Part shown: in pieces, positions 8,727 to 32,902 of the stretch
Layout: each line of letters opens with the position of its first letter
Numbering within the stretch: the first letter of the stretch is position 1
Source of the DNA: Candidatus Methylacidiphilales bacterium
Lineage (GTDB): Bacteria > Verrucomicrobiota > Verrucomicrobiia > Methylacidiphilales > JAAUTS01
DNA length: 37,836 bases
Assembly: GCA_028713655.1 (NCBI GenBank)
Contig: JAQTNW010000034.1
Span: 1 to 37,836, forward strand
Direction of reading: 5' to 3'
Program-made: the position numbers and the translations under genes
Notes under the pieces: generated by a model
Database searches by the model: none
What the model saw: only the letters and a program-made list of their open reading frames with translations
Told to the model about the DNA's origin: nothing

Positions 8727-9587
8727 TCATTTGGCGTCGAATGTACCCAGGTGTTTGAGAACATCCGAGCGGAAGGCGTCGATGTGTTTTGTGACGAAAT
8801 CGGCAACGGACAGCGAGGGCTCGGCGGTCAGAGGTGACAAATCCATGGCCCAGGTGAGGGCTTGCGCCTGATCAGGTAGGTGCGGCTCGGAAAAGGTGGC
8901 GTTGGCCATGCGGCGCCCGAGCGCAGCCTGTTCGTAACGTTTGCCGCCGACAATCTGGGATTGGAATACGCGGATGAGCTGGCGGGCGAGGATATCGTTC
9001 TGGTCGGCGCGCAACGCAATTTTGAATTTGTCAGGAAGCCAGTCGAGATTGCGCCAGACTTCGCAGCCCAGAACTTGTTTGGGCCGATGCTCCGGCTTAA
9101 GTGTTCGCAAGGCGTTGATGCTGCGGATGGCCAGGGCGACATGGGTGTCGTGCTTGTCGGCGGGGTTGTGAAGATAAACCACATCGGGCCTGCAGTGTTG
9201 TAGAATGGAAGCCAGATCGCCTGTCGCTTCGCTGAAAGCGGGATCTTTTACCTTTGTGCTGGGATACCCCAGTTGGATGAGCAGGCCGTATTGGCCGATC
9301 TCGGCGGCATGGCGCTGCTCGCTCTTTCTGGTCTCCCGCATTTCTTCGTTGCTGCAATTGGTGTAGGGGCCGCTGCGCGGGCTTCCGGCCCCGTCGGTGG
9401 CAATAATGGCCGTGAACCAGTTGTCAGGTTTTTCATGGCACTCGGCAATGCCGTGGAAGGCCATGATTTCGGCGTCGTCCTGATGCGCCGCGATGCACAG
9501 ATGGGTGGTCCGCTCCAATGCTTCTTCCAGCGGGCTTCCGTCCGGGACGTAGATGTCGGCCTTGGCTTGAAGGTTCATCGCGCTCAT
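8727..9587 (-). CDS. PIG-L/LmbE family deacetylase-like protein
   Basis: This 286-residue protein has the zinc-binding signature of the PIG-L/LmbE superfamily, which removes N-acetyl groups from sugar-linked substrates. The AHxDD(A)E motif is at residues 34-40 (AHQDDAE) and the second metal and catalytic block is at 140-149 (HNPADKHDTH). No signal peptide is seen, so it probably acts in the cytoplasm. The substrate cannot be told from the sequence; GlcNAc-type conjugates are typical. Its start codon overlaps the stop of the adenylate cyclase gene by ATGA, so the two are co-transcribed and translationally coupled. A second ATG at codon 4 is possible. The 3' end abuts the palindromic repeat cluster. 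Confidence 0.85.
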   Translation of the reverse strand: MSAMNLQAKADIYVPDGSPLEEALERTTHLCIAAHQDDAEIMAFHGIAECHEKPDNWFTAIIATDGAGSPRSGPYTNCSNEEMRETRKSEQRHAAEIGQYGLLIQLGYPSTKVKDPAFSEATGDLASILQHCRPDVVYLHNPADKHDTHVALAIRSINALRTLKPEHRPKQVLGCEVWRNLDWLPDKFKIALRADQNDILARQLIRVFQSQIVGGKRYEQAALGRRMANATFSEPHLPDQAQALTWAMDLSPLTAEPSLSVADFVTKHIDAFRSDVLKHLGTFDAK

Positions 9588-11689
9588 TTTGTTTCCATGA
9601 TGTAAACACCGTCCCAGTCCTTGCCGGGAGGATGCCGACTCAATTCATTACAGCGCCTGGCAAACAGGCGGGCGAGCGTATTTTCCGCATCCTGGGAAGA
9701 TGCGGACTCGAAAAGCTGCAGGGCTTCCTCGAATTTTCCGGTGCGGTAGGCGATCACGCCCTGTTCGTACTGTTCCAACGAGCTTTGTTGTTGAGAGGTG
9801 AGGGGTGTTTCGATCCGTCCGAGCACATAAAACGTGTCCACGGGTCTGGATCTGCCCATTGCGCGGATGAGATCGACGGTTTGGAGGTGGAACTTGTTCT
9901 TAACCAATGTAGCGACATTTTCTCCGAGGATCAGCGGGATTTTATACTGTTTGGTGACGCCTTCCAGGCGGGAGGCCAGGTTCACGGCGTCGCCGATCAC
10001 CGTGATGTCCTTGCGCCGGGGGGAGCCCATTTCTCCGGCGAGGACTTCGCCGTGGTTGATGCCGATGCCGATCTCCAAGGGAGGACGTCCTGTTTGGCTC
10101 CAGTGGTTATTTAAAGTTTTCAGGGAGTCCAGCATGTCGAGCGCGCAGGAAACGGCATGGGCGGCGTCCTGTTCCGGGCTCAGGCTCCGCACATTGCCCC
10201 AGACGGCCATGACGGCATCGCCGATGAATTTGTCGAGGGTGCCCTCGTAGCGAAAGACACATTCCACCATTTCGGTAAAATATTCGTTGAGCTGGGCGAC
10301 GAGGGCGTGGGAATCGTCGAATTCGCTCATGCGCGTGAAGCTGCGGATGTCGGAAAACAGCATGGTGCAGGGCTTGCGGATTCCGCCGAGGGACTCGGCG
10401 AAATCGCCGGAGCCGTCCAGGATTTCTCTTACAACATTGTGTGAGACATATTTTTCAAGGGCGCTGCGGGTTTTGGCTTTTTCCAGCAGGGTGCCCACAA
10501 ATTCATGCAGCAGGCAGAGCGTCCCGCCGGTGGTGAGTGAAAGCAAGGGGGCTACGACGGGCAACATGCAACTGAATTGGTTATAAATGATCTGGCAAAG
10601 GCCGATATAGGCGAGGGAAGAAAACAGCAACAAAAGGAAGCGGGTTACGGGATGTTGGAAATGGAGCAGAATGAGCCAGGCCAGCGCGCCGCCTGCGAGG
10701 ATCAGAAGTATATCCTGCCAGGGATCTGGTTCCCGGATAAATGCATCTGACAAGGCTGCACCGAGGGTATTCAAGTGCAATTGCGGACCGTACATGAGTC
10801 CTGGCATTGGTGTTGTTTTAAGGTCCTGTGACCAGTTGCCTGCGGGGCCGACCATGACAATCTTGTTCCTGAACAAACGCCCGTTTTCATAGTTGGCTGC
10901 CCAAAGTTTTGGAACAAAAATTTCATAGATAGGTCTGGGTAGATAGGCGTCGCCGCTGGAACCGGCAAACCGGAAACGGTGTTGCAGCGTATCGGAAGGA
11001 ATTTTGTCGCCCTTTCCGATTTTGGTTAGAGCTTGGGTAGCCAAAATGGGGAGCGGCTCATCGATGATATCCGTTGAGGCTTGAAACCGTGCGGAGCGGA
11101 TGACCCCATCGGGTTCGGGCCAGAAATTGGCCAGGCCGACATCGTGCATGGATCGGGATCTGGAACCCGCGATGCTCTCGGAGGGCCAGACCAGATTTTT
11201 TTTAATGGTTCCGGTTTCTTCAAGCTCGGAAATGTTGGCTGCCAGGACAGTTTTGCCGGGGTGCCGTTTGAGGGCCTGAGACAGATAATCGTCGCCGGTC
11301 CCCGGATCGTGAAAAAGCAGGTCCAAAATAATCACACGGGCGCCGGCATCGGAAAGCTGATCGATCAAGCGGCCCCACACCTCGCGGGACCAGGGCCACC
11401 GGGTTGTAATCAGTTGAAGGGAGGGTGAGGCTTTCATTTCCTCTTCGCTGAAATCCCCATCATAGTTGGTTTTGTCAATGCCCAGGAAGACCAGGTTTGG
11501 ATTTTCCGGTGCCATCGGTCCAATGCGGACCCGCTGGTCATAGGCGTAATATTCGAGTTGTATGAGCGGCAAAAATTTTAGAGGCAAGTTGTGGTCGATC
11601 AGCCACTCGCTGGAGACCCACAGGAGCGACCAGAAGACTGCGGAGCCCAGGCAGATTGCCGGCAGAACATATTGGGTGCGCAGCTTCAT
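9584..11689 (-). CDS. CHASE2-domain adenylate cyclase
   Basis: A membrane sensor cyclase of 701 residues if started at the ATG at 11689; an upstream TTG would add 13 residues. After an N-terminal membrane helix (about 8-28) comes an extracytoplasmic CHASE2 domain (about 45-320). Three closely spaced helices follow (about 325-345, 350-370, 377-400), then a short coiled linker and a class III cyclase domain (about 435-625). Metal-binding Asp447 (FSDIRSFT) and Asp491 (IGDAVMAVWG) are present, with purine-selecting Lys487 and Asp561 (KDITVIGD), and Asn570 and Arg574 (NLASR) for transition-state binding. The Lys/Asp pair points to ATP, hence cAMP. The tail (about 636-690) is TPR-like. It is coupled to the deacetylase downstream and divergent from the FecR gene, a frequent genomic partner of CHASE2 cyclases. 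Confidence 0.93.
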   Translation of the reverse strand: MKLRTQYVLPAICLGSAVFWSLLWVSSEWLIDHNLPLKFLPLIQLEYYAYDQRVRIGPMAPENPNLVFLGIDKTNYDGDFSEEEMKASPSLQLITTRWPWSREVWGRLIDQLSDAGARVIILDLLFHDPGTGDDYLSQALKRHPGKTVLAANISELEETGTIKKNLVWPSESIAGSRSRSMHDVGLANFWPEPDGVIRSARFQASTDIIDEPLPILATQALTKIGKGDKIPSDTLQHRFRFAGSSGDAYLPRPIYEIFVPKLWAANYENGRLFRNKIVMVGPAGNWSQDLKTTPMPGLMYGPQLHLNTLGAALSDAFIREPDPWQDILLILAGGALAWLILLHFQHPVTRFLLLLFSSLAYIGLCQIIYNQFSCMLPVVAPLLSLTTGGTLCLLHEFVGTLLEKAKTRSALEKYVSHNVVREILDGSGDFAESLGGIRKPCTMLFSDIRSFTRMSEFDDSHALVAQLNEYFTEMVECVFRYEGTLDKFIGDAVMAVWGNVRSLSPEQDAAHAVSCALDMLDSLKTLNNHWSQTGRPPLEIGIGINHGEVLAGEMGSPRRKDITVIGDAVNLASRLEGVTKQYKIPLILGENVATLVKNKFHLQTVDLIRAMGRSRPVDTFYVLGRIETPLTSQQQSSLEQYEQGVIAYRTGKFEEALQLFESASSQDAENTLARLFARRCNELSRHPPGKDWDGVYIMETK

Positions 11690-11698
11690 GAGGCCGGA

Positions 11699-11728
11699 AT
11701 CGTAGCGGAAAGAAGCGGCTGGAGACAA
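11699..11728 (-). promoter_or_regulatory. Promoter candidate for the adenylate cyclase gene
   Basis: On the minus strand TTGTCT (11723-11728) and TACGAT (11699-11704) are separated by 18 bp. The -10 box ends only nine bases before the ATG at 11689, so transcription would begin at or next to the start codon. No Shine-Dalgarno sequence precedes the start, consistent with a leaderless message. The box matches are moderate. Confidence 0.35.
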
Positions 11729-12032
11729 GATTTAGCGGAATTTACCGGAGACGCAGGAAAAATTTTAACGCAACTCCGACATCCGTCGCGAGCGGGAGCC
11801 GCAATGCGCCTGCGGCGCACGCGAAGGCGCAAGAACATATTTTTTAACACGAAGGAACGAAGGCTAAAACCTTAATTCATTCCCCGCCAATCCTGTTTTC
11901 CTTGGCGTTCGTGGCGTGCTTTGCGCGAAACATTGTTTCGCATTCATTTTTTGTGCTCTTTTGCGGGCAAACCTCTGCATTTTCTCTGCCTCTGCGGTCA
12001 ATTTCCCTTGGGAAAATACTTCCGGGTTGTCA
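11729..12032. other. Divergent intergenic region with repeat fragments
   Basis: This is the space between the divergent cyclase and FecR genes. It contains a copy of the short dispersed repeat ACTCCGACATCCGTCGCG (11773-11790) and a perfect hairpin GCGAAAC-ATT-GTTTCGC (11925-11941) followed by a T-rich run. It also holds decayed 'CACGAAGG', 'TTCGTGGCG' and 'CTCTGCCTCTGCGG' fragments of the kind seen in other gaps of this window. I see no gene. Confidence 0.5.
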
Positions 12033-12061
12033 TTGACTCGGTAAATAATTTTACCTAATAA
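12033..12061 (+). promoter_or_regulatory. Promoter of the FecR gene with an inverted repeat in its spacer
   Basis: TTGACT (12033-12038), a 17-bp spacer and TAATAA (12056-12061) lie 22 bp before the FecR start. The spacer holds the inverted repeat GGTAAA-TAAT-TTTACC (12040-12055), which occupies it almost exactly, as expected for a repressor operator or an activator site that twists the promoter. A GGGG stretch nine bases before the ATG is a likely ribosome-binding site. Confidence 0.55.
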
Positions 12062-12083
12062 TCTGTATTAACTTGGGGCTATA

Positions 12084-13886
12084 ATGGGTTTCTTTCTATT
12101 TAGAAGGCAGGGGCAGACCGGTCTGGTTTCCGGTTTTTTCATGCTTTTATGCTTCACTTCCGCGCTTGCCGCGGAAGGCATACCGCTTAATCGCGCCACT
12201 TTTACCGATGTGGTGAATGATGTGGCGGTTTTGAAGGCCTCCAGCAATGCCCGGATCCCGGTCAAAAAGGATGACCAGGTGTCGGCGCCCGACCTCGTAC
12301 GCACCGGTGATAAATCGCGCGCGGAGCTGAAGGCGCCTGACAATACGCTTACGCGCATTGGCGCCAATACGGTTCTTTCCTTCAAGCAGGATGGCCGCGG
12401 GATCAACCTGGAACAGGGCAGTGTCTTGTTTCATTCCCCCACGGGCAAGGGCGGCGGCACGATCCAGACCGCGGCGGTGACGGCGGCCGTGACGGGCACG
12501 ACCATTATTGTGGTATGCACGAAAAACGGCGGATTCAAGCTCCTGGTTTTGGAGGGCAAGGGGAAGGCGACCTCAGGAGGTCATTCCGTGACGGTTGGGG
12601 CTGGCCAGTTGGTTTTTGTCCTGCCGGGAGCAAAGGGGTTTTCACCCGTATTCAATTACCAACTGATGAACCAAACGCAAAAGTCCGGGCTGGTACACGG
12701 ATTCAACGGCAAGCTGGCCTCGCAGGATAAAATTGACCATGCCATTGACCAGCAGAACGACCAAATCCTCAACGGGAAAATGGTCGTTACCGATTTGCTG
12801 GTGTCGGATGGGGATGCAAGCAACAGTGGCGTGCCGGTTGTGTCGCAGACCACTTTGGAAAACCAGATCGGCGATTCGGCATTTCTTGCGGCGCTGTTTG
12901 CGGCTTTCAGCAAGGATATCATGGTGTCCTCCAGCACGCCTTTCCCCCAGGACCAGATTTTCGGGATCAAATTTTTTGCCGGGGCCGAGGTATTTTTAGG
13001 TGTCCATGACTCAGGCGGTGGGAATGACAATGATCCCAGCAACCTAGCTCTTGTCGGCCGTAACATTACAGTGCAATCCCCGCTGAATCTGTCCCCGTAT
13101 GCTGGAGTGGCGAATTTTGTTATCGCATCCAATGGAACGCTGATCCTTCCGGTGTCTCTCTCGATTATTCCGGGACCGAATAATCTAACATTCTTTGGCA
13201 AGACGGCCGTGAACGGTGGCTCGATGAACTATCCTGGTGGCATTGATCTGGAGGGCGGCCAGGTCAACATGCCGTCAGGATCCACACTTCAAGGCAATTC
13301 GCCAAATGGGAACCACGGCGTGGGAATTCGCTCCTACAGCGACCTGAATTTGAACAATGTGAATCTGATCAATTCGAACCCAACCGGTTTTGTCGAAGCC
13401 GAAACCGAAGGGAACCTGACAATGAACGGAGGTTCCATGGTTGGGGCCACCTCGAGCATGAGCGGAGGAATTCAAGCGCGCTCAGGACTGGATATGAACA
13501 TTGTCGGCACCACGTTTTCCTCCAATTACACGGAATTTGATTCCGGTGGAAGCGCAACCCTGAGCAGTCCGACTTTTACGGGGCCTACGGGTTACACCAC
13601 GCAATTTTACGCTGGTGGATCCCTGACCGTGACCAGCCCGAACTTTTCGGGGAGTGCGGGTTATATCCGCATGGACGCCACGAAAATCATCCTCAACAAC
13701 GTAAATTTTCCGACCAGTGCGAACGTGGATCTTTTTACACAGACTGGCAATTGGAGTACGATCAGTGCGGTGCCGGGCGGAGTTTATTTAAACAATTGCA
13801 CGTATGGCACTCTCATCACCGGCAGTGGAACCGCAGGGGTGGTGGCCACAGCGGGTGGCAATCAGCTTCAAAGCTTGCATCACTAG
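12084..13886 (+). CDS. Secreted FecR-domain protein with beta-helix-like C-terminus
   Basis: A 600-residue exported protein. The signal peptide covers about residues 1-30 (hydrophobic core GFFMLLCFTSALAA). A FecR domain spans roughly 40-185, with the core strand pattern VTAAVTGTTIIVV and LLVLEGKGKA at 132-162. After a helical linker (190-270), residues about 330-600 are rich in Asn, Gly, Ser and Thr with short repeats such as LNLNNVNLINSNP and GSATLSSPTFTGP, suggesting a right-handed beta-helix or passenger-like fold. In verrucomicrobia and other groups such FecR proteins are stand-alone periplasmic or surface proteins and not anti-sigma factors, and no sigma factor gene is nearby. The gene starts 13 bp before the outer-membrane barrel gene ends the operon, and it is divergent from a CHASE2 cyclase. 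Role unknown. Confidence 0.85.
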   Translation: MGFFLFRRQGQTGLVSGFFMLLCFTSALAAEGIPLNRATFTDVVNDVAVLKASSNARIPVKKDDQVSAPDLVRTGDKSRAELKAPDNTLTRIGANTVLSFKQDGRGINLEQGSVLFHSPTGKGGGTIQTAAVTAAVTGTTIIVVCTKNGGFKLLVLEGKGKATSGGHSVTVGAGQLVFVLPGAKGFSPVFNYQLMNQTQKSGLVHGFNGKLASQDKIDHAIDQQNDQILNGKMVVTDLLVSDGDASNSGVPVVSQTTLENQIGDSAFLAALFAAFSKDIMVSSSTPFPQDQIFGIKFFAGAEVFLGVHDSGGGNDNDPSNLALVGRNITVQSPLNLSPYAGVANFVIASNGTLILPVSLSIIPGPNNLTFFGKTAVNGGSMNYPGGIDLEGGQVNMPSGSTLQGNSPNGNHGVGIRSYSDLNLNNVNLINSNPTGFVEAETEGNLTMNGGSMVGATSSMSGGIQARSGLDMNIVGTTFSSNYTEFDSGGSATLSSPTFTGPTGYTTQFYAGGSLTVTSPNFSGSAGYIRMDATKIILNNVNFPTSANVDLFTQTGNWSTISAVPGGVYLNNCTYGTLITGSGTAGVVATAGGNQLQSLHH

Positions 13887-13899
13887 AAAAACCAAGGGC

Positions 13900-14958
13900 A
13901 TGAAACATTCTTTTTTGGGATTGGTTTTCTTCTGTGCAGCGGCAGGCCTGCTCCAGGCGCAGAACCAGTCTGCCATTCAGCAGTATCAAAACACCCAACA
14001 GCAGCAGGAGCAGTTTAACAAAATCGACGCCACGCAGAAGGGCGAAAAGGATAAGGAAGCCGCCCCCGAGTTGTATCCCGGCGAAAACAAGGATGTGGGC
14101 CCGCAACTGCTGGTTCGGGCCGTGCCCCGGCGCCAATGGATTGAGGCCACGGCGGATTCCCAGTATTACTACACCTCCAACGTGTTTTTGGCCAAAGAGA
14201 CTGCGCCGGGTTCCCGTAGTGACACCGGCGTGATGGTCAGTACGGCCCAGGTGGCGCTTGCGCCCGATCCCTTTGATCTCTGGGGCGGGAAGGTTTCACC
14301 GCGGATCGGCTTCCGTTACCAATGGTATAACTACGGAATGGACAGGAACGACAACCAGGATTTGCCCAACGGATTGAATTCCCTGGATTTTGACGCCCAG
14401 ACCGCTTTTGCCGACGTGCGCTACCAGTTTTTGAAGGATTGGATTTTCACCATGGGCGCTGATTTTACGCGTCTGGTCAGCCATGAACCGCCCTTGAAGG
14501 ATTACCATGAGTTCTACAAGGAAGCGGTGCCGCATTTCGGATTGGAACGTTTGTTTACGGTGAGCGACAACTCGGCGGTGTCGCTGGCTTATACCAATTA
14601 CATTCATATCACCGATTCCACCCCCGCCGCTCCCTCCTCCTACAGCAACAACCGGATGGAGAATGCCGTCACCCTGTCCTACACGCAGCAGGTGATTGAA
14701 CACTTGATTCTCCAGCCTTATTTCCGTTTTCAATACGATAATTATATCAGCAGCAGCGGCCCCGGCAGCAATGGTTCCCGCATGGATCTGGGTTATAGCA
14801 CGGGATTGACTGCGGCCTATTATTTCAACAACTGGGCCTCCATTCGCAGCTTTTTCACATACGACACCCGCGCCACCCATGGGCTTACCAACAGCTCGAT
14901 CTACGACTATGAGGTCTATAACGGCGGCGTCGGAGCTGATATGACGTTCCGATTCTAA
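13900..14958 (+). CDS. Outer-membrane beta-barrel protein
   Basis: A 352-residue protein starting at the ATG 13 bp after the FecR gene. Residues 1-20 form a signal peptide (LGLVFFCAAAGLLQA). A Gln- and charge-rich, probably flexible stretch follows (about 21-75), and then a barrel region of alternating amphipathic strands with many aromatic residues (for example RIGFRYQWYNYGMD, SVSLAYTNYIHI type strands, LQPYFRFQYDNY). The last residues MTFRF end in the C-terminal Phe recognised by the BAM machinery. The length suggests about 12-14 strands. Its neighbour is the FecR protein, with which it probably forms one transcription unit and perhaps one envelope assembly. The substrate or function cannot be read from the sequence. 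Confidence 0.82.
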   Translation: MKHSFLGLVFFCAAAGLLQAQNQSAIQQYQNTQQQQEQFNKIDATQKGEKDKEAAPELYPGENKDVGPQLLVRAVPRRQWIEATADSQYYYTSNVFLAKETAPGSRSDTGVMVSTAQVALAPDPFDLWGGKVSPRIGFRYQWYNYGMDRNDNQDLPNGLNSLDFDAQTAFADVRYQFLKDWIFTMGADFTRLVSHEPPLKDYHEFYKEAVPHFGLERLFTVSDNSAVSLAYTNYIHITDSTPAAPSSYSNNRMENAVTLSYTQQVIEHLILQPYFRFQYDNYISSSGPGSNGSRMDLGYSTGLTAAYYFNNWASIRSFFTYDTRATHGLTNSSIYDYEVYNGGVGADMTFRF

Positions 14959-20082: not shown

Positions 20083-23000
20083 TTACTGTTTGCGGGAAAC
20101 CCGCGCCAAAACCGGGCGCAGGTATCTTGCCGTGTGGCTGGAGGGATGCCGGGCCACTTCCTCGGGCGTGCCCTGCGCGATGATGCGCCCTCCCGCATCG
20201 CCGCTTTCCGGCCCGAGATCGATCAGATAATCCGCCTCGGCCAGAACATCGAGATGATGTTCGATGACAACGACGGTATTTCCCGAATCCACAAGTTTGT
20301 GGATGACTTCGAGCAGGCGTTGGACGTCGGCGAGATGCAGGCCCACAGTGGGTTCTTCCAGCAGATAAAGCGTTTTGCCTGCCAGCAAATCGCGGGTTCG
20401 CAGCCTTTGGCGCTGTTCCTGCATCCGGACACCGGCCAGCTCCGAGACCAGCTTGATGCGCTGGGCTTCGCCGCCCGAGAGGGTTGGACTGGTCTGGCCG
20501 AGCGTGAGGTAGCCGAGGCCGGTTTCCTGCAGCAGCCGGAGCGGCACCTGGAGGGAGGGCTGGCCTTCGAAAAAGTCAGCCGCTTCATCGACGCTAAGTT
20601 GAAGAATCTGGTAAATATTTTTGTCACGGTAGGTCACTTCCAAAACGGAATCCGTCCAGCGTTTGCCGTTGCATTTGTCGCAGGGCACGAAGGTGGAGGG
20701 CAGGAAATTCATATCGACCTTGATGGATCCCTGGCCGAGGCAGGCGGGGCAGCGCCCGCTTCCCGAGTTGTAGGAAAAATGGCCGGCGGTGAATCCGCGC
20801 GCCCGTGCGAGCTGTGTCTGGGCCAAAAGTTTCCGGAAATGATCCATCAAGCCGATATAAGTGCAAACGGTGGAACGTGATGTTTTCCCGATGGGCGACT
20901 GATCCACTTCCACAATTTTTCCAAAAACATCCGCGCCCGTGAGGGACGCGCAGGGCAGGGCGGTTTTGTTTTTTCGGGAAGCCGTGGGCAAGGCCTGGCT
21001 GACTGCGGGGATGATGACCCGGTGCATGAGGGAACTTTTTCCGGAACCGCTGACGCCGGAAATGCAGGTGAAGCGACCGATGGGGATTTTGACATCGATA
21101 TTTTTTAAATTATTGGCGTGCGCGCCTTTCATTTGGAGCCATGGATTCTTCGAGCCGATGGGGCGGCGCGACCCGCGGGACGGGTGGAGGATCGGATTGC
21201 CCAATAGCAATCCGGTGGCGGACTTCGTGTGGCGCGAAATTTCCTTCCAGGAACCGCAGGCGACGACCTCTCCGCCATGAACGCCGGCGCCGGGACCGAG
21301 ATCGATGATGTAATCCGAGTGGCGCATGGTGTCCTCGTCGTGTTCGACGATGACCAGGGAATTGCCGCGCTGCTGGAGTTCGCGCAGGGTGCGGATGAGT
21401 TCGTCGTTGTCGCGGGGGTGCAATCCGATGGTGGGTTCATCGAGCACATAGAGCACGCCCTGAAGGTTTGACCCGAGTTGGGCTGCAAGCCGGATGCGCT
21501 GGGATTCGCCCCCCGAGAGCGTGGGAGCCGCACGGTCGAGGTTGAGGTAATCGAGCCCGACATGACGCAGGAATTTGACGCGCTGCTCAATTTCAGGCCG
21601 GATATCGCGGGCGATGATGGCCTCGCGGCCTTTCCATTTCAGGCGTGAAAAGAATCCGGCAAAATCGCGCACGGTCATGGCGTTGATGTCCGTGATGGGC
21701 TTTCCCGAAAAGCGCACCGCACGCGCGACCGGGTTCAGGCGCGCGCCGTGGCAGGTCGGGCAGGGGGCGGTTTCTTCGGGTTCGAGATTTTCGCGCGCCA
21801 GGTCGAGTTGCTGTTCCCGTTCCACTTCTGAAAGGTCGGGGTCCAGAGTGATTTTCGCGACAGTGCCGTAGCCCTGGCATTCCGGGCACCAGCCGTGCGG
21901 GCTGTTGTAGGAAAAGAGCCGCGGATCGAGAGGATCGAATGAGCGCCCGGTACCGGGGCAATACAGCGCTGTGCTCAGCACCTGTTCGCGCTTGTGGTTG
22001 TCGAGCAGGTAAATGGTGCCCTGCCCGTAGGCCAGGGCCTGGTTGACCAAAACGGGAAGGTTGGAGGTTTTACGGTCCAGGTTGCCGAGAATGAGGTCGA
22101 TTGTGTGCTCGCGGTAACGGTCAAGGGCTTTGAATTTGGCCGGCTCGATCCATTTGCCATCGACGCGCAAAACGGGATATCCCTTGCGCTGGGCCCAGTT
22201 GGCCAGTTCCGTGTACAGCCCTTTGCGCCCGCGGATCATGGGCGCGATGAGGGTCAGTTCGGATTGCGAGGCCTGTTTTTGCGCCTCCTGCACAATATCC
22301 GCCGCCGACTGGCGGATGCAGGGTTCACCGCTCTCCGGGTCGTGCTGTACGCCCAATTTGGCATAGAGGAGCCGCAGGAAATGATAGAGTTCCGTAACGG
22401 TGGCGACGGTGCTTTTGCCGCCGCCGCGGGTCGTGCGCTGTTCAATGGCGACGGACGGCGGAATGCCGCTGATGGAATCCACGCGGGGTTTTTCGAGCTG
22501 CTCGATGAACTGCCGCGCGTAGGTGTTCAGGCAGTCGAGATAGCGCCGCTGCCCCTCGGCGAAGAGAAGGTCGAAGGCCAGGGTGCTTTTTCCCGAGCCT
22601 GACAAACCGGTAATAATTACCATTTTATCCCGAGGAATGTCCAATGAGATGTTCTTCAGGTTGTGATGCCGGGCGCCCCGGACTTGAATGCAGGTCGATT
22701 GGCGCGCGGAAACGGCAGGAGCGGACTTGCGACTTTTGAGCGGTTTCAAAATTTGTTTTTTGGATTTCGAGCGGCTCAACAGCGGCGCCAGGTATTGGGC
22801 TGTCCGGCTTTGCGGATGGGCGGCGATTTCCTCCGGTGTGCCGCAGGCGACGAGCCGTCCGCCGAGTTCGCCGGCCTCGGGACCGAGGTCGAGGATGTAG
22901 TCCGCGCATTTGACGACTTCCATGTTATGCTCGATCACAAGCAGCGTTTGGCCGGAATCGACCAGCGCCTGCAGCACCTCGAGCAGGACGCGGATGTCGT

Positions 23001-25695
23001 CGAAATGCAGGCCTGTTGTCGGCTCATCCAGAATGAGCAGTTTGCTGCCAGACCCCGTTTTAGCTGATTCATTGCGATTTGACAGGCTTTTGGCGAGGTG
23101 GCTGATGAGTTTCAGGCGCTGGGCTTCGCCGCCGGAGAGCTGGTTGATCGGCTGGCCGAGCCTCAGATAGCCGAGCCCGACCCGGTCCAGCAGGCCAAGG
23201 GCTTCCGCAACGGTTTTGCGCTGGGAAAGCTCGCGGGGTGTGGCATCGGGCGCTGGAGTGGAAAAAAGGGCGAGTCCCTGGCTGACGGTCAGGTCGAGCA
23301 GTTCCGAAATGGAAGTCCCGCGGTACTGGACTTTCAGGACATGGGGTTGGAAGCGTTTTCCTTCGCAGACCGGACATTGGACAAAAATGTCCGAAAGGAA
23401 CTGCATCTGGATTTGTTCATGGCCCGTGCCATTGCAGCGCTGGCAACGGCCGGTGCCGGCGTTGAAAGAAAATCCCGAGGCGTTCAGGCCGGCCTGTTGG
23501 GCGGATTCGGTCATCGCAAACAATTCGCGCACGGAATCATAAACGCCGAGGTAGAGCAGAGGCGTGGAGCGGGGTGTCTTGGTGAGCGGGCTTTGATCCA
23601 CGATGACGACATCCGAAACGGCGCTGCCATTGACCAGTTTTTTCAGCTCTCCCGGCTCGCTGGCCGGACGGTTGAGCTGGAGCGAAAGATGTTTGAAAAT
23701 GATTTCATCCACCAGCGTGCTTTTGCCCGATCCGCTGACGCCGGTGATGGCGGTGAAGCGGCAGGTGGGGAAGCGGAAGGACAAGTCCCGCAGGTTATGC
23801 TTGGAAGCGCCTTCGAAGCTGATCCAGGTCGCCTGCTCCAGGCTGCGGCGGCGTTCCGGAACGGGGATTGATTTTGCGCCGGAAAGATAACTGCCTGTCA
23901 GGCTTTTCGGGTGGCGGACGAGTTCGGACGGCGCTCCCTCAAAAACGAGCCCGCCTCCGGTTTCACCGCGGCCGGGTCCCAGCTCAAGGATGTGGTCGGC
24001 GGCCTGAATGACGGAGGAGTCGTGTTCGACAACCATCACGGTGTTCCCCTGGTCGCGCAATTGCCGGAGGATGCGGATCAGGCGCTCGGTATCGCGCGGG
24101 TGGAGGCCGATGCTGGGCTCGTCCAGTACAAACAGCGTGCCGACCAGGGAAGTGCCGAGGCAGGTCGTGAGATTGACTCGTTGGATTTCGCCGCCTGACA
24201 AGGTGCGGCTGGCGCGATTGAGGGTCAGATAACCGAGCCCGACCTCGTCGAGATAGCGGATTCGGAACAGAATTTGTTCCAGAAGGATGAGCGTGGACTC
24301 GTCCTTGGAAGTGATTTTTTCAAACCATGCAACAAGATCATGAACCGGGGAGCCGTTCACTTCCGCAAGTGATTTGCCATTCAGCCGCCAGAGTCCGGTC
24401 TCGGGTTGGAAGCGTCCCCCGTCGCAGGCCGTGCAGGTTTTATAGGCGCGGTAGCGCGCGAGCAGCACGCGGATGTGCATTTTGTACGTCCGGGTTTCGA
24501 GCCATTCAAAAAAACCCTTGACCCCGTACCATTTCCCGGATTCCCACACTTGTTCTGCGGTTTTGCCCCGGGTGGGTTCACCCTGGATGACGAACTGCTG
24601 CTGCTCCGGCTTGAGGGAGGCGAAGGGTTGGTGGAGGGGGATGCCTTTTTTTCGGCAGGCCTTTACGAGGTCCTCCTGGCATTCGGCATTGGCCTCGGTC
24701 TGGAAGGGTTTGACCACGCCGTCCCGGATGCTGAGGTTGCGGTCGGGCAGGGCCAGGTTGTAATCGATTTCAACACTGCGTCCGAAGCCCCGGCACGCGG
24801 GACAGGCGCCTACCGGATTGTTGTAGCTGAAAAGCGAGGGCGAGGGCGGCGTGTATTCGATGCCGCTGTCCGGATCCACCCAGCGCGTGGCGAAACGCAG
24901 GCGGTTGCCGCTCTCCGCGCTGGTCCCATCGAAAACGACCGTGATCAGGCCTTTTCCAAATTCAAACGCGGTTTGCAAAGCCTCGGTCAGGCGTGATTTA
25001 GCCGCCGTTTCCAGCGTGATGCGGTCGGCAATCACCGAGACAATGATGTCTGGTTTTGATTTTTTCCCAGGAGATTTTTTTGCCGGCGCCGCATCCAGAA
25101 CGCTGAGGTTCGGACTTTCCGCAGAATCCAGCCGGTGGATTTTTCCGTTGCAGTAGATCCGCAGGAATCCACGGGCCTGGATGAATTTCCGGATGGAGTC
25201 CCAGGCGGTGCCATGTGGGAAGGGGATCTCAAACAGGATCAGGGCGGCTTTTCCGGCGTTGTTTTTCAGAAGTTCATTTGTCACGTGTTGGGGAGTCCAC
25301 GGTTGAATCCGTCGTCCGCTGAGCGGGCTGTAAAGCTCGGCCATTTCAGCAAAGAGCAGTTTGAGATAATCGGCCGCCTCGGTCATGGTTCCGACCGTAC
25401 TGCGCGAGCTGCGGACCGAATTGACCTGGCTCAGGGCGATGGCGGGTGGGACGCCCTCGATCCGGTCGGCTTGCGGCCTGTCCATGCGTTCAAGAAATTG
25501 CCGGGTATAGGGGGAAAAGGTCTCGGTGTAACGGCGCTGGCCCTCGGCATAGAGCGTGTCGAAGGCGAGCGACGATTTGCCGGAGCCGCTCAGTCCCGTG
25601 ACCACAATGAGCCGGTTGAGTGGGATCTCAAGATTGAGATTTTTCAGGTTGTTTTGGCGCGCGCCGAATATCTGGATTGAGCTGTGGGAGGGCAT
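20083..25695 (-). CDS. uvrA: UvrA excinuclease subunit, tandem duplicated form
   Basis: A giant UvrA of 1870 residues (ATG at 25695; further in-frame ATGs upstream would add up to 13) made of two complete UvrA halves in tandem, hence four ABC ATPase domains. Walker A motifs occur near residues 34 (GLSGSGKSS), 651 (GVSGSGKST), 1030 (GLSGSGKST) and 1547 (GVSGSGKSS). LSGGE signatures lie near 497, 852, 1390 and 1736. Both halves keep the Cys-pair zinc modules ([23 protein letters not shown] with [32 protein letters not shown] with CDKCNGKRW). The fourth Walker B reads [10 protein letters not shown], with Glu where Asp is standard. Double-length UvrA is known from Chlamydiae and other PVC bacteria. 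It works in nucleotide excision repair, scanning DNA and loading UvrB. A normal UvrA is about 940 residues. Confidence 0.96.
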
Positions 25696-25834
25696 TGCAG
25701 GGGGTAAACCTAGATGCATCGGAGGTGGATGCAAGCCCCGGAGCGCTGTCTCAGGACATTAACCACGAACACAATTTTACAGGAAGATCGCTGAGAACGG
25801 AAAGATAAAGCTGAGAGCCTCCCAGAACCTGGGA

Positions 25835-28791: not shown

Positions 28792-30237
28792 ATGTTCGGA
28801 TTGGGAGACATTTTGTTGAGGCGCATTCTGGACATCACGCTTTGTGCTGTCGGGCTGCGCATTATCATGGGCTGGCTGCTGGCCTACCCGCGTTTGTTGC
28901 GCCTGATTTTCACCGTCTTGCTGATTCTTCTGTTCGCCGCGGCCATTTATGCCCTTAACCTGCCCTTTGCCATGCTGCTGACGTTTATCGTGGCGCTGCC
29001 GGTTTCCGTGCTTGTGTTTTTGTCTTTTCTTCCCGAATTGAGCCGTATTTACCAGGCGGCCAGCCGCGGAAACCTTTTCCGCCCGAAGGTGTTTCAATCC
29101 GAGGAAACCCTGGCCGAATTGTCGCTGGCCTTGGTCGATCTCGTGAAGCAGCGTACAGGCGCGCTGTTTGTTTTTTGCAATCGCCTGGATGCTGAAAGCC
29201 TGATCAGCGGCGGCGAGGAGGTTTCGAGCACGGTCAACCGTTCCCTGATTCTTTCCATATTCAATCCGCATTGCCCGCGGCACGACGGCGCGGCGGTGAT
29301 CCGCTCGAATCGCATCACGCGCGTGGGCGGTGTGTTGCCGCTGGCCACTGCGGAAGGGGTGGACGCCGAATTGGGTACGCGCCATCTCGCGGCAATCGGA
29401 CTCACACAGCGCAGTGACGCGCATGTGATTGTCGTTTCGGAAGAGCGCGGAATCATTTCGCATGTGCATGACGGGGTGCTGAAGCTGGTGACCGGTGAAA
29501 CGCCGGAAGAACTGGAGCGTGAGTTGCTGCTGCTGCTGGGCGTCAAATCCCAGGATCGCACGCGCAAACGGCATCGCCTGATGTCGATCGGGCTCTGGAT
29601 TCTGGCGTTGGCGATAGCGGCTTTGGGATCGGTTGAGACGGATATTTACAAAAAGAAGTATTTTGAGACGCCTTCCGTGGCCACCACCGCAGACGCCAAG
29701 ATTGAATTCAGCAACATCCCGCCCAGCCTGTTTATCTCCGAGCAGAGTGAGACGGCGCTCAAATTATTCATGCGGGTGCCGCCGACCTTGAACATTGTCG
29801 GAAAGGATTTTACCATCTTACTGGACATGAAAAACGCCAAGGCGGGCAAGAACCGGATCAATCTGACTTCGGACATGATCCGGACGTTGCCGAAGGAGGC
29901 GCAGGTGGATCGTTTTGACCCTGCGGTGCTCGCTTATACGCTTTCGGAATTACGGACCATGATGCTCGATGTGCAGATGCCGGAAGTGACGGGGCTCAAG
30001 CGTGGGTTGAGAGTCCATGAGAAAAAGCTGGATACCGTCCGGGTCAAGGTGCTGGTGCGGGATCCGCTGTGGAAACCGGCGGACAAGACCAAGGCATTGC
30101 CGGTGGACCTTTCATCCATCACGGCTCCCGGGACTTATACAATGAGCGTAACCCTGAATGTGCCGCAATCCGTCCAGATTGTGAATGGAGGCAATCCGGG
30201 CGGCATCCACCTCTTATTGAATATTGTCGCCAGATGA
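28792..30237 (+). CDS. cdaA: Diadenylate cyclase (CdaA-type) fused to a YbbR-like domain
   Basis: The first part matches CdaA, which makes cyclic di-AMP from two ATP: three membrane helices (about 15-30, 36-56, 59-80), the family PELSRI turn, and a DAC domain (about 100-250). The DAC motif DGA is at 165-167 (PRHDGAAVI). The second motif, normally RHR, reads RHL at 197-199 in [13 protein letters not shown], and [10 protein letters not shown] follows. A further membrane helix (about 264-280) leads to an extracytoplasmic region (290-481) with YbbR-like repeats ([12 protein letters not shown], then [10 protein letters not shown] near 455). Elsewhere CdaA and its YbbR-domain regulator CdaR are separate neighbouring genes; here they form one 481-residue chain. 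The altered RHR motif leaves activity uncertain. Confidence 0.88.
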
Positions 30238-30419
30238 GGATGCCGCTGCATGGCAGTACGACGTTGTTCAACCCGGCTGTCATGTTGCGGATTATTTGCT
30301 TATTGGCAGACTTCAGCCGCACAGATGCCGGAGCTGGGGGCGATGTTTTTTATCGTTCGGCGGATACGGGCTTGCATCCCGTCGGCACACGCGGGGAGAT
30401 GTCCTGGGCGTTCGCATAA
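30234..30419 (+). CDS. Possible small protein between cdaA and glgP
   Basis: A 61-codon frame begins with an ATG that overlaps the cdaA stop (ATGA) and ends two bases before the glgP start, filling the gap exactly. The peptide ([19 protein letters not shown]...) has one weakly hydrophobic stretch ([12 protein letters not shown]) and no recognisable domain. The fit to both neighbours is suggestive, but the other two frames are also open over much of this GC-rich stretch, so it may be non-coding leader sequence. Confidence 0.25.
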
Positions 30420-30421
30420 CC

Positions 30422-32902
30422 ATGAAAGCGGGAACTGATATCAACCACGATGTTCCGCCGATTTCCCAATCGGAGGACGTCAAGCATTCGATTTTACGCA
30501 ATCTCAAATACAGCCTGGCGCGCGATCCCGGGACCGCCACGTTGCGCGACTGGTGGTATTCCCTCTCCAAGGCGGCGCAGGAACGCATCATCGAGCGGAT
30601 GATTGCCACACAGGGCGCTCACGCTAAGGAAAAGCCCCGCCGCCTCTACTATTTGTCGCTGGAATATCTCATGGGCCGCCTTTTGGGCAACAACCTGCTC
30701 AATATCGGCATCTTTGAACAGTCCGAGCATGCCTTGAACGAGCTTGGCCTGGAACTTGAGGAGATACGGGACCAGGAATATGACATGGCCCTCGGCAACG
30801 GCGGTTTGGGCCGCCTCGCCGCCTGTTTTCTCGACTCGCTGGCGACATTGGATTTCCCGGCCATCGGCTACGGCATCCATTATGAATTCGGGCTGTTCAA
30901 GCAGGAGTTTGTGAACGGCTACCAGGTGGAGCGTCCGGACGAATGGTTGCGATACGGGGATGCATGGGAACTGGTACGCCCCGAGTACACGCAGAAAATC
31001 CAAATCGGCGGGCGTGTGGAGAATGTGTTTGACGACCTGGGCAATTACACAGCCCGTTGGGTTGATTTCCAAACCATCGTTGGAGTGCCCTATGACATTC
31101 CCATCTGCGGCTATGGCGGGAAGACTGTCAATTTCCTGCGCCTTTGGGAGTCGCACGCCCAGGAGGAATTTGATTTCAAGGCGTTCAACGCCGGGGGCTA
31201 CAGCGAGGCGCTCCAGCGCAAAAATCTCGGTGAAACCATCACCAAGGTTCTTTATCCCAATGACCAGACGGAAAACGGCAAGGAACTGCGGCTGTTGCAG
31301 CAATACTTTTTTGTGACCTGCTCCCTGAGGGATATCTTGCGCCGCTTCGAGCGCGAAAACGGGCCGGACTGGAAACGCCTCTCGGACAAGGTGAAAATCC
31401 AGTTGAACGACACGCACCCCGCGGTGGCCATTGCCGAATTGATGCGCATTTTGCACGATGAGCATCGGATTTCATGGGAGGAGGCCTGGGGCCTGACAAC
31501 CCAGACCTTTGCCTACACCAATCACACGATCATGCCGGAGGCCCTGGAACGCTGGAGTGTGCCGTTGTTTTCAAAGGTGTTGCCCCGCCATCTCCAGATT
31601 ATCTTTGAGATCAACGGGCGTTTCCTCAAGGAAGTGGAGGCCAAGTGGCCGGGTGACCTCCAGAAAAAACGGGATTTATCCCTGGTGGAGGAGGGGCCGG
31701 TACAGATGTTGCGCATGGCCCACCTCGCGGTCGTGGGCAGTTTTTCAATCAACGGGGTGGCTGAATTGCATACCCGGCTGATTCGCGAAAAATTATTCAA
31801 GGATTTTAACACGCTTTATCCCGCCAGGATTAATAACAAAACAAACGGCATCACGCCGCGCCGGTGGCTGCTCTCCGTCAACCGGGAGTTGAGCGAGTTG
31901 ATCGATGAAAAAGTCGGGAAAGGGTGGGTCACCGACCTCGACAAACTCCGCGGCCTGGAATCATTTGCCGGGGATGAGGGCGTTCTGGGGCGGATTCTTG
32001 AGATCAAACGCGGGAACAAACAGCGCCTGGTGGAGACGATCCGGCAGGATTGCGGTGTGGAAGTGAGCCCGGACGCGCTGTTCGACGTCCAGGTCAAACG
32101 CCTTCATGAGTACAAACGGCAGCATCTGAACCTCCTGCATATCCTGACACTATACAGGCGCCTGCTTCAGAACCCCGATTACGACATGCATCCCCGGGTG
32201 TTTGTCTTTGGGGCCAAGGCCGCCCCCGGCTACGTGGTTGCCAAATGCATCATCAAGGCCATTAATTCCGTGGCCGAAAAAATCAACAACGACCCCCACA
32301 TCAACGGCAAGCTCAAGGTGGTGTTCCTGCCCAATTACAGGGTTTCCCTGGCCTCCATGATCATGCCCGCCGCGGACCTTTCCGAGCAGATTTCAACCGC
32401 GGGCATGGAAGCTTCAGGTACCGGAAACATGAAGCTTGGCCTTAACGGGGCCGTCACCATCGGGACTCTCGATGGCGCCAACATCGAGATTCTTGAGGAA
32501 GTCGGCGCGGAAAACATTTTCATATTTGGGATGACGGTACAGGAAGTGGAGGCGCTGCGGGCCAGGGGCTACAAGCCCCAGGACATCTACAAGCGCGACG
32601 AAGAACTAAAAGCCGTGATGGACTGGCTGGGGTCGCGCCATTTTATTCCCAACGACCCGCATGACACGCTCGCCCCGCTTTTGCACAGCCTGTTGGAGGG
32701 CGGAGATCCCTTCATGGTACTGGCCGATTACCACGCGTATTGCGACGCTCAGCAAAAGGCGGACCGGGCGTACAAGGACCGGATGGGCTGGGCCAGGATG
32801 TCGCTGTTGAACACCGCGCGCCTGGGAAAATTTTCCAGTGACAGGACCATCCGCGAATACGCGCATGACATCTGGAACCTGCAGCCCGTGGTTGTTCCTT
32901 AG
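30422..32902 (+). CDS. glgP: Glycogen/starch phosphorylase
   Basis: GlgP splits terminal alpha-1,4-linked glucose from glycogen with phosphate, giving glucose 1-phosphate. The ATG at 30422 gives 826 residues, the family size; longer in-frame starts run back into cdaA and lack similarity. Diagnostic segments are [17 protein letters not shown] near residue 80, [21 protein letters not shown] near 120, LNDTHPA near 330, and the pyridoxal phosphate lysine Lys671 in [25 protein letters not shown] near 560 is also typical. It follows the c-di-AMP synthase gene on the same strand and is followed by two strong GC hairpins that may end the transcript. Confidence 0.97.

Follow-up and report, generated by a model that had tools for sequence, protein, structure and literature searches.

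A probable split-gene relative of the NsrA–CyaK signalling system in Verrucomicrobiota: outer-membrane barrel, FecR-domain protein and CHASE2 adenylate cyclase

The closest known system to the gene trio described here is the NsrA–CyaK pair, which allows Sinorhizobium to perceive its host plant. In S. meliloti NsrA is required for signal-dependent cAMP production via CyaK and CyaD1/CyaD2, a ribosomal protein is the candidate signal, and residues 600–1200 of NsrA are described as its barrel portion (PMC7529298, PMC13001267). The S. meliloti pSymB DNA encodes a 1,219-aa protein that combines a FecR domain (E 2e-15) with TPRs and a long C-terminus, and the gene of this FecR–TPR–barrel protein overlaps that of a CHASE2 cyclase; the record carries no annotation, and the two genes are taken to be those of NsrA and CyaK on the basis of their content, size and order together with the published description. 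The FecR–TPR fusion architecture also occurs ahead of a CHASE2 cyclase in Methylocystis.

Clustering of CHASE2 and FecR genes as such is already published for other phyla. In Campylobacterota a CHASE2 adenylate cyclase is clustered with genes for a FecR-domain outer-membrane protein, a phosphodiesterase and TPR proteins (PMC9239204), Burkholderia species have an operon for a LysM-FecR protein and a CHASE2 histidine kinase (PMC5192318), and in magnetotactic bacteria a CHASE2 adenylate cyclase gene follows mtxA, no barrel gene being described (PMC4439547). MtxA (4z29) is weakly matched by the FecR profile. The literature searched, in which most subscription journals are absent, yielded no paper describing a module of this type from Verrucomicrobiota.

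The locus lies in a 37,836-nucleotide stretch of DNA (hereafter the window) from a Candidatus Methylacidiphilales genome and has four genes positioned as the initial annotation placed them, in two head-to-head units separated by 394 bp (11690–12083). The minus-strand unit encodes a CHASE2 receptor adenylate cyclase (9584–11689; 701 aa from the ATG at 11689) and a PIG-L/LmbE-type deacetylase (8727–9587; 286 aa), whose genes overlap as ATGA. The plus-strand unit encodes a secreted FecR-domain protein (12084–13886; 600 aa) and a predicted outer-membrane beta-barrel protein (13900–14958; 352 aa from the ATG at 13900). According to a Pfam scan of the neighbours, the genes adjoining the module are nuoN and recN.

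Like NsrA–CyaK, the window encodes a FecR domain, an outer-membrane barrel and a CHASE2 adenylate cyclase together. NsrA, however, is one FecR–TPR–barrel polypeptide whereas FecR and barrel are separate genes in the window, and the window FecR protein, unlike NsrA, has no TPRs and carries a beta-solenoid. Since the FecR–TPR–barrel fusion gene overlaps a CHASE2 cyclase gene on pSymB, the window module can be viewed as a split-gene variant of the same kind, and we consider it probable that barrel, FecR protein and cyclase form one trans-envelope signalling unit related to NsrA–CyaK. The trio probably carries a surface signal across both membranes in Verrucomicrobiota. The barrel, as a receptor or co-receptor in the outer membrane, would sense at the cell surface; the secreted FecR protein, located in the periplasm and with its solenoid perhaps displayed, would relay the state of the barrel to the periplasmic CHASE2 domain, and CHASE2 would switch the cytoplasmic cyclase and with it the cAMP level. 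The physical contacts, the direction of the signal, the ligand and the cAMP output of the trio are what we infer here. Such a unit would extend the cAMP route of the rhizobial symbiont to Verrucomicrobiota.

A membrane cyclase with a CHASE2 domain was expected from the initial annotation, and Pfam agrees, placing CHASE2 at residues 38–336 (E 3e-32; 10682–11578 on the minus strand, PF05226 with 115 bits in the whole-genome search) and Guanylate_cyc at residues 440–622 (E 1e-23). Hydropathy peaks at residues 8–26, 326–344, 347–365 and 376–394 place one transmembrane segment before and three after CHASE2, which is the architecture of a CHASE2 receptor adenylate cyclase (transmembrane segment, CHASE2, three transmembrane segments and class III cyclase domain); the C-terminus is weakly TPR-like. 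The metal-binding Asp447 and Asp491, the adenine-type Lys487 and Asp567 and the transition-state Asn570 and Arg574 are all present in the alignment, and the enzyme is predicted from its sequence to make cAMP. Its nearest named relatives belong to Verrucomicrobiota. Among the PDB sequence matches listed for the cyclase profile, the cyclase end is covered and the CHASE2 domain is in none.

The source genome (G000; 3.3 Mb, 90 contigs) contains four CHASE2 and four FecR genes, and two of its CHASE2 cyclases have FecR as a neighbour. It also encodes ten cNMP-binding domains, which could be targets of cAMP. A second CHASE2 cyclase, found in this genome (L009, G000:C6, 3759–8177) and in G001 (L225, G001:C119), is followed by a FecR gene in the same direction and then by a gene for a 207–256-aa protein that carries an LDACFA motif, looks caspase-like by eye and has no Pfam match. 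Relatives have, in addition, about one CHASE2-only protein per genome, of about 400–520 aa and devoid of a cyclase domain; in G000 the corresponding gene (L011, G000:C26, 5564–6829) lies beside an atpB-like gene.

The FecR protein (PF04773, E 1e-11, residues 71–159) starts with a signal-peptide-like hydrophobic stretch at residues 12–30 and gave no TPR match in the Pfam scan. Its AlphaFold2 model consists of a confident FecR fold at about residues 36–180, a disordered linker (193–380) and a beta-solenoid at residues 381–555 (13224–13748 on the plus strand; pLDDT about 60–83). A Gly/Asn-rich C-terminus had been noted from the translation, and the composition of residues 381–560 (15% Gly, 12% Asn, 13% Ser and 12% Thr) agrees with it. 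Foldseek relates the FecR fold to the anti-sigma factor 4m0n (E 1.7e-6) and to the cell-surface signalling domain of PupR (6ovk_R, E 5e-5), a protein that passes on the state of an outer-membrane transporter; for the beta-solenoid alone Foldseek gave no significant match in the PDB.

The last gene is predicted to encode an outer-membrane barrel. Its product ends in Phe, as had been observed, and the AlphaFold2 model, built on an alignment of only three sequences, shows 12 long strands in antiparallel order, the majority at a pLDDT of about 90, and an N-terminal tail of about 77 residues of low confidence. With E values of about 1e-8 to 1e-7, Foldseek matched the model to the barrels of CymA, OmpG and autotransporters. 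The window barrel protein had no Pfam match, including none to a TonB or plug domain, and its homologue in G001 matches PF10082 (BBP2_2).

These structures bear on the main rival to the relay model, in which the FecR beta-solenoid protein is a cell-surface structure, an adhesin on display, that the barrel exports or anchors, and CHASE2 reports its display or surface contact and not a soluble ligand. Besides the solenoid itself and the 12 strands, as in the autotransporters found among the Foldseek matches, this reading can draw on weak matches of the barrel homologues in G015 and G020 to Autotransporter PF03797, on a weak match of the G081 FecR protein to a filamentous-haemagglutinin family and on the resemblance of the FecR fold to the cell-surface anchoring domain 5ix9. 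The autotransporter matches fall below the curated cut-off, however, and the solenoid is optional, the FecR partners in G001, G036, G045 and L121 being about 270–300 aa long; we regard the adhesin reading as unlikely. Classical autotransporters have passenger and barrel in one polypeptide; the window has separate genes.

Taken as a signalling unit, the trio can be set beside the other systems outlined above. With the Campylobacterota clusters it shares the CHASE2 adenylate cyclase and FecR; unlike them, it has no phosphodiesterase or TPR gene beside it and has a barrel gene of its own. The Burkholderia operon also couples a FecR protein to a CHASE2 receptor, but there the output is a kinase, the FecR protein carries LysM and no barrel is described; a kinase version with a barrel occurs in G220. 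A FecR-type periplasmic domain is common to the window and the FecIRA and Pup systems, and the window model resembles the PupR signalling domain. Those systems, however, have ECF sigma factors, whereas no sigma factor gene lies beside the module; the window FecR protein is without the FecIRA-type cytoplasmic anti-sigma part, its fold starting soon after the signal-like stretch; and the window barrel is a small 12-stranded protein, not a TonB-dependent receptor. Membership of the FecIRA class was rejected for want of a neighbouring sigma factor and a TonB receptor.

Besides the window, 10 more Verrucomicrobiota genomes have the genes for the barrel, the FecR protein and a CHASE2 cyclase of the window clade next to one another; the layouts at these loci number five. 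The cyclase gene is divergent from FecR-barrel in the window and in G001, where the cyclase frame is interrupted in its assembly, and divergent from barrel-FecR in G122 and in the MAGs L120 (Chthoniobacterales) and L121 (Verrucomicrobiaceae). FecR-barrel is convergent with the cyclase gene in G036 and G045, and barrel-FecR in G081; in G145, G223 and G235 the order is cyclase-FecR-barrel, all in one direction. At least four changes of the trio label are needed on the cyclase tree. In G102 the CHASE2 cyclase of the trio is a more distant one, and G220 has a FecR-barrel pair of the same kind head-to-head with a CHASE2 histidine kinase, the CHASE2 domain of which scores 302 bits against a profile made from the cyclases of the window clade.

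The statement that CHASE2 cyclases and FecR proteins lie together held up in numbers. Among 31 genomes, FecR was found within 5 kb of 12 of the 50 CHASE2-cyclase loci (genes not of CHASE2-only size, either cyclase-sized or fragments) against 0.59 expected, and within 5 kb of none of the 30 CHASE2-only genes; FecR lies within 3 kb of the barrel in 20 of 24 loci. Cyclase and barrel also occur in the same genomes. In an order sample of 60 genomes, some of which contributed to the barrel profile, 24 had both, 4 the cyclase only, 1 the barrel only and 31 neither (p 1e-11), and without two over-sampled families the corresponding figures were 10, 1, 1 and 16 (p 9e-6). A phylum draw of 195 genomes, sharing only G000 with the barrel profile, gave 7 with both, none with the cyclase only, 2 with the barrel only and 185 with neither when that genome was left out (Fisher p 2e-11); the omission of those families and the use of a separate phylum draw are the only corrections for kinship in these comparisons. 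Given the linkage excess of FecR and the cyclase–barrel co-occurrence, a chance neighbourhood was rejected. Co-evolution of FecR and CHASE2, proposed at the outset as a check, was seen as a correlation of distances over 25 linked pairs (r 0.70), which persisted when the cyclase domain was regressed out (partial r 0.59, p 0.0002), although the test does not free the values entirely from shared ancestry.

A different explanation would make the FecR–barrel pair a surface system in its own right, independent of CHASE2 and simply often encoded next to CHASE2 genes. FecR-barrel pairs for which no linked cyclase was seen do occur (G007, G010, G015, G020, G071 and G194). They count against the relay model too, as do the genomes in which the cyclase is unlinked from FecR-barrel (G007, G010, G014, G024 and family f3), those with the barrel and no window-clade cyclase (G015, G102 and G194), and G027, in which the cyclase is present and the barrel absent. 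Pairs or barrels of this sort, lacking a linked or window-clade cyclase, indicate that the pair may have other roles. An independent system is nevertheless improbable, in our judgement, given that the adjacency is repeated in five layouts across distant families, that barrel and cyclase co-occur near-perfectly even if unlinked and that FecR and CHASE2 co-vary. Several FecR proteins are clustered around one barrel gene in L278 (G071:C9) and L221 (G010:C14); among these clusters a barrel also adjoins a protein of 1,477 aa in which the FecR domain occurs twice.

The chain from barrel through FecR to CHASE2 that the initial annotation had envisaged therefore finds support in the conserved neighbourhood, the co-occurrence, the FecR–CHASE2 co-variation, the output swap and the precedent of NsrA–CyaK. 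The output joined to FecR–barrel is a cyclase in most genomes and a histidine kinase in G220, which suggests CHASE2, and not the output domain, as the reader of the pair. A wider proposal, against which we lean slightly at present, is that CHASE2 in the window clade, and perhaps widely, acts as a periplasmic docking relay that reads the FecR–barrel pair and not as a small-molecule sensor. The pair would then serve as a portable input cassette, open to combination with different outputs. The input of CHASE2 domains has been called unknown (PMC5192318), and a CHASE2 that reads FecR–barrel would answer this question. As the conserved module is split, so that the barrel gene and the FecR gene can each be deleted, and as nature provides one output swap, the idea that CHASE2 reads an outer-membrane receptor through FecR is directly testable.

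The deacetylase stands apart from this unit. Its identity as PIG-L is well founded (PF02585, E 5e-17, 63 bits against a cut-off of 28; HQDD zinc motif at residue 35), it scores far under the BshB1 and BshB2 cut-offs, and a sequence search of the PDB gave no relative at E 0.001. In the initial annotation it was the fourth component of the system, modifying a glycan that the barrel–FecR pair would sense or display, and its ATGA overlap with the cyclase gene does suggest co-transcription, and hence co-expression, in this genome. Yet no other trio neighbourhood examined contains PIG-L; 33 of 60 genomes across the order have orthologues with 41–60% identity, nearly all of them full-length, located apart from the window-type cyclase, and these include genomes without such a cyclase; and after removal of the two over-sampled families PIG-L and cyclase show no significant co-occurrence (p 0.43). 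Of the four-gene order, the trio recurs and the deacetylase does not. PIG-L was rejected as a module member on these grounds and is judged from the sequence comparisons to be a lineage-specific neighbour, a four-gene system being very improbable. In several genomes of family f3 a PIG-L orthologue lies about 4–5 kb from a CHASE2-only gene.

The best promoter-like match in the divergent intergenic region is TTGACT-18-AATAAT at 12033–12062 on the plus strand; promoter-like matches are no commoner there than in shuffled sequence, so this promoter is only a suggestion. An inverted repeat, GGTAAATAATTTTACC, is located at 12040–12055 upstream of fecR, and was rejected as a conserved operator because it was not found at the other trio loci compared. 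Elsewhere in the window, a 1,883-aa ORF (20083–25734, minus strand) in which UvrA domains are matched more than once is probably a tandem-fused double UvrA. Further along (28792–32902, plus strand), the ORF of a 481-aa protein with a DAC domain of the c-di-AMP synthase type overlaps that of a carbohydrate (glycogen-type) phosphorylase.
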